This document shows positions 17,710 to 35,463 of a DNA stretch of 39,361 bases, piece after piece. The position numbers and the translations under genes are program-made. This stretch comes from Cyanobacteriota bacterium (GTDB taxonomy: Bacteria; Cyanobacteriota; Vampirovibrionia; Gastranaerophilales; UBA9971): the NCBI GenBank assembly GCA_022703625.1, contig JAKLDH010000011.1, forward strand, positions 1-39,361, read 5' to 3'. How positions within the stretch are numbered: the stretch's first letter is position 1; every line of letters starts with the position of its first letter. Below the pieces are notes generated by a model. The model was not told the origin of the DNA, ran no database searches, and saw nothing but the letters and a program-made list of their open reading frames with translations.

Positions 17710-17982
17710 GTTGACTGTGCCCCGCCATCGATAAGGGCAATTATGTGGTTCAGTAACTTTAATCTCCAGTCCGGAAGCCTGACAACACCCGAAAGACATG
17801 ATTTATGGCTGCTGCGTTCCCGCCCTGACCAGGTTCATCGGCTTTCGCCGCATCAGACCGAACCTTCTCAGATTAATAATTACTGTCGACCATAACTACT
17901 CAGACCTCACGGCAGGCTGTCCACCCTGCTAAAGCGATTGCAGATTCAGGGCATCGCTAGTTCCCCGTGTAGCACAGTCAAC
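17710..17982 (-). ncRNA. ffs: signal recognition particle RNA, large bacterial type with Alu domain
   Basis: About 273 nt, RNA of the signal recognition particle that guides nascent membrane and secreted proteins. The ends pair through an 11-bp stem (GTTGACTGTGC/GCACAGTCAAC). The 5' part, with ACGGGGAACTAGCGATGCCC and a CTGCAATCGCT segment, matches the Alu domain of Bacillus-type RNAs. The apical S-domain helix reads GGTCAGG, then a GCG stem closed on a GGAA tetraloop, then CGCAGCAGCC, which is the binding site for Ffh. A T-rich terminator follows directly. Upstream on the minus strand, an AT-rich stretch with AAGATATAG could be the -10 region. The exact ends are taken from the terminal stem. 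Confidence 0.93.
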
Positions 17983-32719: not shown

Positions 32720-34072
32720 TTAATCATATATAAACGGCGGACCATTTTTAATTTCTTCTATAATACCATTATATTTTAATTTTAAATTTTCTTTATTGCT
32801 GAAATCCTTCCCTGAAAGTATTTTGTACTCATCTATTAACGGTTTAACAGCAACTTCTTTTTTTGTGATAAAGTTTTTAAGCTCAACTCCCACCAATTTA
32901 TCATGCATATTAAGATCAGTTTCCGCATTCGCTTTTTTAACCTGAGTTTCTTTATGAGCCTCGACAAATTTTGATCCGGCATATCCTAATCCGCTTACTG
33001 TGGCTAAACCTGCAAATAAACTTCCTGTAAATTTAGACGGATTCATTATCATGTTGTATAAATGTCCTGAAACATCATCTAAATAAGCAAAAACCGTTGG
33101 TTTGCCGTTTTTATTTCCATACATTTCATGCGCCGGCGCCCAGGAACTTTCTTTTACTCCCGAAGAAGACGTTTTTTGAGCGGCATCATCTATTATTTGT
33201 CCAATGGTTCTGATATTTTTCATTGTCTTTTTTATTAAAAATACTGACGCTGCAACAGCTCCCACAGCTATGCCAATGCCTGGCAAGCTTGTAAGAGGCT
33301 TTGACTGACTATTAAAGCTTTCTTTATCCTGTTTATTGCCTGCAAAAGAAATATTTTGCGCTTTATTTATTGTATCAAGCTCTTTTGTTTTTTCATCAGT
33401 CAAATAACGAACAATTTGTTTTTTCCCCGAAAAACTCCTTGTTTCAATATCAATCATATTTTCCTGAAAATTTCTTTGAATATCCGCTTCCCGCTTTTTA
33501 ACCCAGATTTCTTTCATCCCGTCAACCGTGTTTTTTAAAACAAAAGCCGCAGAAGAAAAAGTTATTACAGCCATTGCCCCGAGTATTTTTTTCAAACTCG
33601 GGTCCCTTAACGCTTCATAAGCCGCATATTGACTTTCTGTCTTTATATTTATATTCGGCGGCAGAATAGGTCCTTTTTCATTATCATTAAATATTTTTTT
33701 AACGCCTCTGAATATCTTTGAAACAAATCCATTTTCAATAGCTTCAGGATTGAGTTTTTTCTTGTAAAAACCTGCAAGCGCTCCTGTTGCAAGAGCTCCT
33801 GCTCCAAGAACTCCCAGTGGGATTCCTGCCATTGAAATAAATGTTTTTTCCGCGTTTCTGTTATCTTTATCATAGTTTTTTTTAAGCTCTTTTGGCAGTG
33901 ATGAGTTTATAAATACAGAGTCTTCATTTTCTCTGCCATTTATATAAGTATCTGTAATAAAACCTTTTTGAACGGCTTTTAATCCTTTATCAGGGCGTTG
34001 ACGCTGATTCGTGGCTGAATAACCTTCTGTTCTCGACTTTATATCGGCATTATGATGTATATTATTTACCAT
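32720..34072 (-). CDS. hypothetical protein with four hydrophobic segments
   Basis: A 450-residue protein not recognised. It has a polar N-terminus (1-75) and about four hydrophobic, Gly/Ala-rich segments: around 85-105 (VLGAGALATGALAG), 165-185, 270-290 (GIGIAVGAVAASVFLIKK) and 350-370 (SLFAGLATVSGLGYAG). Each is followed by a charged helical stretch, so it looks like a multi-span or glycine-zipper membrane protein with intervening cytoplasmic parts. No signal peptide and no catalytic motif. The ATG overlaps the end of the upstream gene, and GAGG lies 8 nt upstream of it, inside that gene: the two are surely one transcript. It is probably lineage-restricted; function unknown. Confidence 0.75.
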   Translation of the reverse strand: MVNNIHHNADIKSRTEGYSATNQRQRPDKGLKAVQKGFITDTYINGRENEDSVFINSSLPKELKKNYDKDNRNAEKTFISMAGIPLGVLGAGALATGALAGFYKKKLNPEAIENGFVSKIFRGVKKIFNDNEKGPILPPNINIKTESQYAAYEALRDPSLKKILGAMAVITFSSAAFVLKNTVDGMKEIWVKKREADIQRNFQENMIDIETRSFSGKKQIVRYLTDEKTKELDTINKAQNISFAGNKQDKESFNSQSKPLTSLPGIGIAVGAVAASVFLIKKTMKNIRTIGQIIDDAAQKTSSSGVKESSWAPAHEMYGNKNGKPTVFAYLDDVSGHLYNMIMNPSKFTGSLFAGLATVSGLGYAGSKFVEAHKETQVKKANAETDLNMHDKLVGVELKNFITKKEVAVKPLIDEYKILSGKDFSNKENLKLKYNGIIEEIKNGPPFIYD

Positions 34073-34926
34073 CTGTTTTTCCTCTTGTCTTTTTTGTCTT
34101 GTTTTTGTTTGCCCTGATCAGTATTTTCGTCTGTTATAAAGTTGACCATATTAAGAAATTTTTTGATTTTTTCTTTTAAAGACTCGATTTTTTCTAATAA
34201 GGAATCGTGAAAAAGCTGTCTTTTTTGGTTAAAGATCATAATTAACCGGTTTAGAACTTCTGATTCAACGATTTTGACCATTATTTTTTTTATATTTTCA
34301 CGGATTAAATGTTCTGTAAGTTTTATTTTTTCACCCAGCATTGCGGTTAATTTTTCGACAACTCCTATTAACTTTGTTAGCGAATGATTTATAACGTTAA
34401 TAACCTTATTCAAGCTTTCCATCGCAGGCTTAAAGCTTGTTATAACCTGTTGAGTTAAATTTGATATCGCATTAGTCAGGTTTGCAATTTGAATCTGGGT
34501 CGCGCTTCTTAATGCGGCTAATTTTTGTAAAAGTTCTGAAGATTCAAATTTTTGAATAAGAACGTTATTTTCTCTTGCCAGTTGAAGAAGCTTGCGGTCT
34601 TCAGCAGTCATAAACTCAGCCATTTTGAGTCTTGTCCAGACGTAATAAGCTTCACCCCACGACATGCCGGTTCTTTTGGCTACAGTTCCGCCGCCACCAC
34701 CGCCGCCTCCGGCTTTGCCCATGCACAAAGGGCATGATCCTCCAGGCGCGCCATGCGGACATTTAGTTTCGCCTTGAACAGCATTATTGTATTGCATTAT
34801 TTGTTGAGCATTATTATTTCTTCTCATAAGAGCATTTTGAGAAGAATACCCGTTATTATACAGGTTATTTCTGTTATGATAGTCGTAATAACTTTTGTTA
34901 TTTATATTTAAAGAATAGCCGGACAA
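34066..34926 (-). CDS. hypothetical protein with CPHG...CPLC motif and coiled coil
   Basis: About 286 residues from TTG at 34926, chosen because GGAGGAG lies 6 nt upstream; a GTG five codons earlier would start inside that ribosome site. The N-terminus is Asn/Tyr-rich. A possible zinc knuckle C-x-H-x6-C-x2-C (CPHGAPGGSCPLC, about 56-68) is followed by a run of eight glycines (about 73-80). The rest (about 95-260) is long amphipathic helix, likely coiled coil, and the tail is Lys-rich. No signal peptide or membrane segment is clear. From memory, similar CPHG...CP-x-C motifs occur in proteins of Gastranaerophilales-type bacteria, but I cannot name a function. It overlaps the next gene by 7 bp; a cobalamin riboswitch lies about 195 bp upstream. 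Confidence 0.75.
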   Translation of the reverse strand: MSGYSLNINNKSYYDYHNRNNLYNNGYSSQNALMRRNNNAQQIMQYNNAVQGETKCPHGAPGGSCPLCMGKAGGGGGGGGTVAKRTGMSWGEAYYVWTRLKMAEFMTAEDRKLLQLARENNVLIQKFESSELLQKLAALRSATQIQIANLTNAISNLTQQVITSFKPAMESLNKVINVINHSLTKLIGVVEKLTAMLGEKIKLTEHLIRENIKKIMVKIVESEVLNRLIMIFNQKRQLFHDSLLEKIESLKEKIKKFLNMVNFITDENTDQGKQKQDKKDKRKNRW

Positions 34927-34994
34927 ATTAATCTCCTCCACAATATAAATTTATATTGCGATAAACCAAATTTTATAGTAGAAAACTTTTATTT

Positions 34995-35065
34995 TTACCC
35001 CAAATACGACAAAAACTGCGTTTTATCAAAACCGACAGTTTTCAAAATTAATAAAATATGTTCAT
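34995..35065 (-). pseudogene. possible relic of the original riboswitch-controlled gene
   Basis: Directly after the riboswitch, GAGGGGAG precedes an ATG at 35065 by about 4 nt, but this frame stops after five codons. In a neighbouring frame, a TTG at 35045 opens a 16-codon stretch (LKTVGFDKTQFLSYLG) before a stop at 34995-34997. The pattern would fit the first codons of a frameshifted and deleted gene, or a short leader peptide. The sequence is too short for a family call. Confidence 0.25.
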
Positions 35066-35120
35066 TTTTCTCCCCTCTCGTGCTCGCAAGAATATTATAT
35101 TAAATGCCTGATAGCTCTTT

Positions 35121-35247
35121 ATAAACAGGTATTCTGACTTGGGACATGTTTTAAATTATCGGCGTTTTTTTGTTTAAACCGCTTAAAACATACAATCCCA
35201 TACAGCTGCGGCACAGTCACGGAATTACACCGTGTTCCCCTGTTTAT
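35121..35247 (-). promoter_or_regulatory. cobalamin (B12) riboswitch
   Basis: On the minus strand the closing stem is CCTGTTTAT-type: 35121-35129 pairs with 35239-35247 over 9 bp. The 5' half carries GGGGAACACGGTGTAATTCC, then GTGACTGTGCCGCAGCTGT, which matches the conserved B12-box region. The 3' half carries AAGTCAGAATACCTG. All the main conserved blocks are in order with normal spacing. Such RNAs switch off B12 synthesis, import or B12-independent isozymes when adenosylcobalamin is high. The next gene on this strand begins about 195 bp downstream and has no known B12 link. Confidence 0.92.
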
Positions 35248-35312
35248 GGGTTTTATAATATCATAAGAGCAATTTTTGTCAAAATTTTGCCTATAAACTG
35301 CATCTCTAATAT

Positions 35313-35463
35313 CAAGTTGCAATCAAAAGAGTAATTTTTTTTTGATAAGGTTTTTACCGGCTGCGCCGGTAAAAACCTTATCAACTCTTCTTCCCCTCCC
35401 TTGGGGAGGGGGCAGGGGGAGGGAGATATAAATAATAAAATTCTTTTATTTTTAGCGCCCCTA
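35313..35463. repeat. family-2 MITE-like element, copy E, joined to a family-4 end
   Basis: Left terminus CAAGTTGCAATCAAAAG, palindrome TTGATAAGGTTTTTACCGGC with loop TGC and its complement, then GGGGAGGGGGCAGGGGGAGG. The right terminus is replaced by AATTCTTTTATTTTTAGCG, a family-4 end. It lies just upstream of the riboswitch. The rest of 35464-35754 is AT-rich leader sequence with no gene. Confidence 0.85.

Follow-up and report, generated by a model that had tools for sequence, protein, structure and literature searches.

The cobalamin riboswitch analysed here almost certainly controls a two-gene operon, and the same arrangement of switch, gene 1 and gene 2 recurs throughout the bacterial order Gastranaerophilales. 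Members of this order live in the gut, and here they are represented almost exclusively by assembled genomes. Our overall reading, which we consider probable, is that a working, B12-repressed riboswitch governs a near-universal operon of the Gastranaerophilales B12 regulon, and that this operon may encode a cobamide-acquisition complex. The DNA examined, hereafter the window, is the whole stretch of 39,361 nucleotides (positions 1 to 39,361, forward strand, of contig JAKLDH010000011.1, order Gastranaerophilales).

A complete cobalamin riboswitch ahead of a gene pair

An earlier note on this DNA, made from the letters alone, described a complete cobalamin riboswitch with a perfect closing stem and proposed an Rfam/Infernal search to confirm the family. 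This search was run: cmscan assigns the element to RF00174 with a score of 51.6 bits (E 3.7e-10), above the gathering score of 31.5, and our own model R1 gives it 36.3 bits. The aptamer core folds as the expected four-way junction, closed by a perfect stem of 8 bp (TAAACAGG/CCTGTTTA), in agreement with that description. It is the only RF00174 match in the window's genome, and a near-consensus promoter-like site lies immediately 5' of it (Table 1).

Two other elements of the window were recorded. A 20-bp inverted repeat with a 3-nt loop (35342-35384), terminator-like on the plus strand, separates the riboswitch from the gene on the opposite strand, and a bacterial large SRP RNA is found at 17715-17977 (139 bits).

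Table 1. Features of the riboswitch, leader and gene pair in the window
Feature	Position	Strand	Basis or remarks
Promoter-like TTGACA-16-TATTAT, extended -10	35255..35282	-	11/12 consensus matches, promoter scan
Cobalamin riboswitch aptamer, RF00174	35107..35278 (core 35120-35247)	-	cmscan, own model R1, fold
L5 half of L5-L13 kissing loop, CTGTGCCGC	35208..35216	-	covariation with L13, 86 loci
P13 hairpin, TTCTTG[CGAGCA]CGAGAG	35075..35092	-	fold; loop is L13, 3' arm overlaps uORF Shine-Dalgarno
Putative Shine-Dalgarno of uORF, GAGGGGAG	35070..35077	-	sequence
Putative 5-codon uORF MNIFY*, ATG AAC ATA TTT TAT TAA	35048..35065	-	sequence; relatives have other short uORFs in the same place
Terminator-like hairpin, AACTGTCGGTTTTGATAAAACGCAGTT	35014..35040	-	starts 7 nt past uORF stop; weak, -5.0 kcal/mol
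Inverted repeat CAATATAAATTTATATTG and gene 1 Shine-Dalgarno GGAGGAG	34933..34958	-	sequence
Gene 1, TTG start (in-frame GTG at 34941)	34066..34926	-	CPHGxPxGxCPxC motif, Gly-rich stretch, long helices
Gene 2, 450 aa	32720..34072	-	about 4 TM segments, internal duplication, conserved C-terminus EIKNGPPFxY

Switch and gene pair are linked across Gastranaerophilales

Comparing this locus among related genomes, a check also suggested in the earlier note, reveals the order switch, gene 1, gene 2 throughout Gastranaerophilales. Of 10 genomes belonging to the same family, 9 have a relative of gene 1, and the RF00174 matches of the order lie immediately 5' of these genes. We scored 192 genomes of the order: 176 have gene 1 and 181 a match to R1; both occur in 174 genomes, neither in 9, the gene only in 2 and the switch only in 7 (Fisher P 7e-10). 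Among the switch-only genomes, the contig of one ends right after the switch (G133), and others have the switch at different targets, namely metE (G011), OprB, CobT-like or radical-SAM genes (G012), TonB receptors (G017, G018) and nrdDG (G184). In genus g37, both switch and gene 1 are absent from all four genomes.

At the level of individual loci, a pattern search places the B12 box 105-450 nt ahead of the CPHG codons at 111 of 126 distinct gene 1 loci. The model finds an aptamer at 13 of the remaining 15, giving 124 of 126 in all, with L006 and L090 lacking any. A class-wide search for gene 1 outside the order found none, all matches falling inside Gastranaerophilales. A search for related loci with a single protein of family f1 returned nothing; queries from family f2 did find loci. 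The relatives that bear a name are Candidatus Gastranaerophilales / Melainabacteria.

Covariation was assessed with model R1 and alignment A4. Both were built from 27 compact aptamers alone, since MAFFT put the 3' half of the long f1 aptamers in the wrong place. In A4, paired columns hold 45 both-side changes compared to 17.9 after shuffling, mainly in P4, with P3 weakly supported. The first pairs of L5-L13 are Watson-Crick in 72 of 86 loci, compared to 42.3 expected with re-dealt partners; none of 5000 permutations scored as high, and P values from permutations, here and below, overstate the effect because related genomes are not independent. More specifically, CTGCC is found with GCAG, GTGCC with GCAC or GCAT, TAGCC with GCTT or GCTG, and CAGCC with GCTG; several of these pair types recur, and shared ancestry inflates the count. 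The L5-L13 covariation therefore indicates that selection acts on the switch.

A different expression platform is typical of family f2. GAGGA in the 5' strand of the aptamer, TCCTC in the leader and GAGGA ahead of the start codon occur together in 67 of 104 non-f1 loci. A three-way permutation of aptamer, anti-Shine-Dalgarno and Shine-Dalgarno sequences gave 4.74 paired bases compared to 4.54, with 1 of 300 permutations as high; this covariation is slight because nearly all loci use AGAGGA. The switches of the order resemble RF00174 (class I/II) in the conserved core, B12 box, four-way junction, L5-L13 kissing loop and translational platform. They differ in that the f2 versions are only ~62-69 nt long and mostly score below the Rfam gathering score, and in that their targets lie outside known B12 families.

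These results bear on two readings offered in the earlier note. According to the first, the original B12 gene was lost, leaving the switch as an orphan relic and the downstream genes on a new promoter. Such a history would fit the window, where no recognisable B12 gene is adjacent, but it is refuted by synteny and covariation: the same gene pair lies behind the switch across the order, the kissing loop covaries and the platforms are conserved. Furthermore, the promoter ahead of the aptamer is intact, and the proposed new promoter, TATAAAAT (34977-34970), has no -35 partner and no minus-strand match in the promoter scan, so we rejected it. We therefore regard an orphan switch as extremely improbable. 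For the second reading, a new B12-responsive function, there is support as far as regulation goes, in the form of a new B12-responsive operon.

A uORF and a terminator-like hairpin follow the aptamer

In leaders of family f1, P13, with the loop CGAGCA, shares sequence with the Shine-Dalgarno of a uORF, and in the window the overlap of its 3' arm is seen both in the sequence and in the fold. Stem variants of P13 among relatives are CTTG/CGAG, CTTG/CAAG and CTAG/CTAG. The terminator-like hairpin behind the window's uORF has a short T run and is absent from the terminator-scan output. A uORF together with such a hairpin is found in six f1 operon leaders. The uORFs are unrelated and 5-8 codons long (MNIFY in the window, and MNKIS, MSGYT, MNIFCLT, MIITYL and MVVRITYL), and the hairpins, each with a T run, begin no more than ~10 nt after the uORF stop, with energies of -5.0 to -21.9 kcal/mol, the strongest in G009. 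The same layout is present ahead of OprB-cbiM (G002) and of cobT-like and OprB genes in two of three leaders of G012, in which the uORF on contig C126 was scored as 2 codons by the script and a longer one in that leader is possible. In G008 (L009/L018), uORF and hairpin are both lost and P13 directly adjoins the start region of gene 1; this deletion constitutes a natural test of direct control.

The stretch directly after the aptamer had been described as a frameshifted 5' relic with a GAGGGGAG site. That site is real (35077-35070), but it appears to serve the uORF and not a decayed B12 gene. Judged by its recurrence in relatives with unrelated uORF sequences, the supposed relic is better read as a putative riboswitch-controlled uORF followed by a terminator-like hairpin.

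The switch very probably acts in the OFF direction. Transcription would start just before the aptamer. With cobamide bound, L5 would kiss L13, P13 would close and the Shine-Dalgarno of the uORF would be masked; with the uORF untranslated, the hairpin right behind it could form and transcription would stop ahead of gene 1. With no cobamide, the uORF would be translated and the ribosome at its stop codon would cover the start of the hairpin, allowing polymerase to go on through both overlapping genes. We infer that ribosomes translating the uORF keep the terminator from forming in this manner, and we give such uORF attenuation in the window a somewhat better than even chance. Control in family f2 would be more direct, the TCCTC anti-Shine-Dalgarno pairing with either the 5' strand of the aptamer or the Shine-Dalgarno of gene 1.

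Riboswitches with uORFs are known from Mycobacterium tuberculosis (PMC11260477; PMC12810186), where B12 and Mbox switches use uORFs with reinitiation or Rho. More specifically, the ppe2 and metE switches are B12 OFF switches with a short uORF, and the ppe2 switch masks the Shine-Dalgarno of its uORF and relays the signal to a gene of uncertain function (PMC11260477). The window resembles ppe2 in combining a short uORF with a B12 switch whose OFF direction we infer. It differs in that the ppe2 uORF overlaps its gene (AUGA) and works by reinitiation, whereas the stop of the window uORF lies ~120 nt from the start of gene 1, which has its own Shine-Dalgarno, with the terminator-like hairpin in between. 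It is possible, though we think it improbable, that the switch controls the operon through Rho-dependent termination or termination-reinitiation from the uORF and not through an intrinsic terminator. The Mycobacterium precedents and the weakness of the window hairpin point in this direction; the ~120-nt spacing with a separate Shine-Dalgarno, and the recurrence of T-run hairpins just past the uORF stop in relatives, argue against it.

Two conserved proteins without a known family

The two genes downstream of the switch, previously described as a CPHG-motif coiled-coil protein and a protein with multiple hydrophobic segments, are both real open reading frames without a known family. They overlap by 7 nt in the window and overlap or nearly abut in almost all of 98 loci scored. 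In gene 1, the C, H, C and C of the motif CPHG..G.CP.C are invariant among relatives, a CHCC-type metal-ligand motif combined with a coiled coil. In gene 2, a unit consisting of a hydrophobic segment and a long helix is duplicated (hhalign, E 2.6e-15).

Neither window protein has a significant match in Pfam, NCBIfam or PADLOC, and PHROGs matches are weak and unrelated. Over all these resources, with the PDB by sequence and Foldseek added, matches were at most weak coiled-coil or chance ones; in PADLOC, which covers anti-phage defence systems, one f2 gene 1 has a weak coiled-coil match to ZorA (4e-4). The AlphaFold model of gene 1 is of too low quality for interpretation (mean pLDDT 55); that of gene 2 has a mean pLDDT of 63.5 and finds nothing at E 0.001 with Foldseek. 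No resemblance to a transporter or to a fold that binds B12 is seen in either protein, as far as such poor models can tell.

Other genes accompany the pair in some genomes. A conserved third gene of 160-220 aa, with no Pfam match, lies behind gene 2 at 89 of 100 loci (most of L107-L119; L142-L221); it is typical of f2, being present in most f2 loci and in none of the 8 f1 loci examined. At the fourth position, about half of loci L142-L221 encode a protein beginning MGMAASQARFLGLTARK that looks structural or surface-type. Genomes of f1 contain a weak second match to gene 1 (G000:C5:506-976, L093; also L092-L099), restricted to the helical part and mostly in frames of ~200 aa.

The operon belongs to a B12 regulon and may serve cobamide acquisition

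Elsewhere in the order, the same switch precedes nrdD-nrdG, metE, btuB-btuC (FecCD; L134) and OprB-cbiM, and the operon therefore belongs to a real B12 regulon, whose targets make sense as functions needed at low cobamide. OprB-family porins lie directly behind a B12 riboswitch at L129:1081-3090 and L133:2567-3985, with cbiM alongside in G002, which suggests a porin route for cobalt or cobamide.

We compared this regulon with the B12 enzymes and importers of the 192 genomes. NrdJ is present at a strong score in 138, the window's genome included. The presence of PF02310 alone is misleading: IMP dehydrogenase also matches, at about 5e-5, and weak PF02310 matches were for this reason not counted as B12 enzymes. 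A TonB plug reaches the cut-off in 15 genomes, and strong FecCD matches occur in those same 15; 12 genomes combine the operon with a TonB receptor. The window's genome has neither PF07715 nor PF01032, and the operon proteins have no Pfam match. In an importer search covering TonB and FecCD only, 130 NrdJ genomes have no such importer, and 125 of them carry gene 1; the five exceptions are G002 (which has OprB-cbiM), G011, G012, G101 and G133 (contig end). Because the operon is carried by these 125 of 130 genomes, our leading guess for its function, held tentatively and at somewhat less than even confidence, is cobamide acquisition: gene 1 and gene 2 would together make up a complex aiding the cell in acquiring cobamide under shortage. 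Gene 1 is also kept in 45 genomes without a clear NrdJ, three of which (G041, G091, G126) have no match to any B12-binding domain either, and these three are awkward for a pure uptake role. The 12 genomes that combine the operon with a TonB receptor also count against acquisition, as does the lack of any resemblance to a transporter.

The same genomes could be accommodated if cobamide were a signal of the gut surroundings and the operon acted otherwise at the cell envelope, for example in a contact or stress response. The architecture of coiled coil plus membrane protein and the third gene following in most f2 loci would also fit, but operon and switch are lost together in g37, whose four genomes also lack NrdJ, and the remaining regulon is classic B12 metabolism. 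We consider such a signalling role unlikely.

Rather less unlikely, though still short of probable, is a B12-independent backup that replaces or supports a B12-requiring step at low cobamide, as metE does for metH and nrdDG for nrdJ. Both nrdDG and metE, the other common switch targets in the order, are such backups, and 8 of 100 loci have nrdD close to the operon on the opposite strand; yet neither gene 1 nor gene 2 has an enzyme-like domain, and a 4-TM protein paired with a coiled coil would make an odd isozyme. The operon thus shares with the nrdDG and metE operons the same switch, the same order and the same expected OFF logic, but those encode known enzymes whereas gene 1 and gene 2 have no enzyme family. 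Returning to cobamide acquisition, the closest comparison is BtuB-BtuCDF, which is under the same switch within the order (L134) and meets the need proposed for the operon; the operon differs in that it encodes neither a TonB receptor nor a FecCD permease, nor any BtuF-like sequence.

Discussion

Our search of the literature found no paper describing the B12-switched operon or its leader. At its most specific, our proposal is that gene 1 and gene 2 are a new type of TonB-independent cobamide acquisition complex in nearly all Gastranaerophilales, under a minimal cobalamin riboswitch and, in one family, a relay from riboswitch through uORF to intrinsic terminator; in this full form we hold it to be less likely than not.

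Most genomes searched have NrdJ and no recognised TonB/FecCD B12 importer, and an operon that is B12-switched across the order would be a direct and testable candidate for filling this gap. The leader, in turn, suggests how a riboswitch of the translational kind might influence transcription, by means of a tiny uORF and a terminator.
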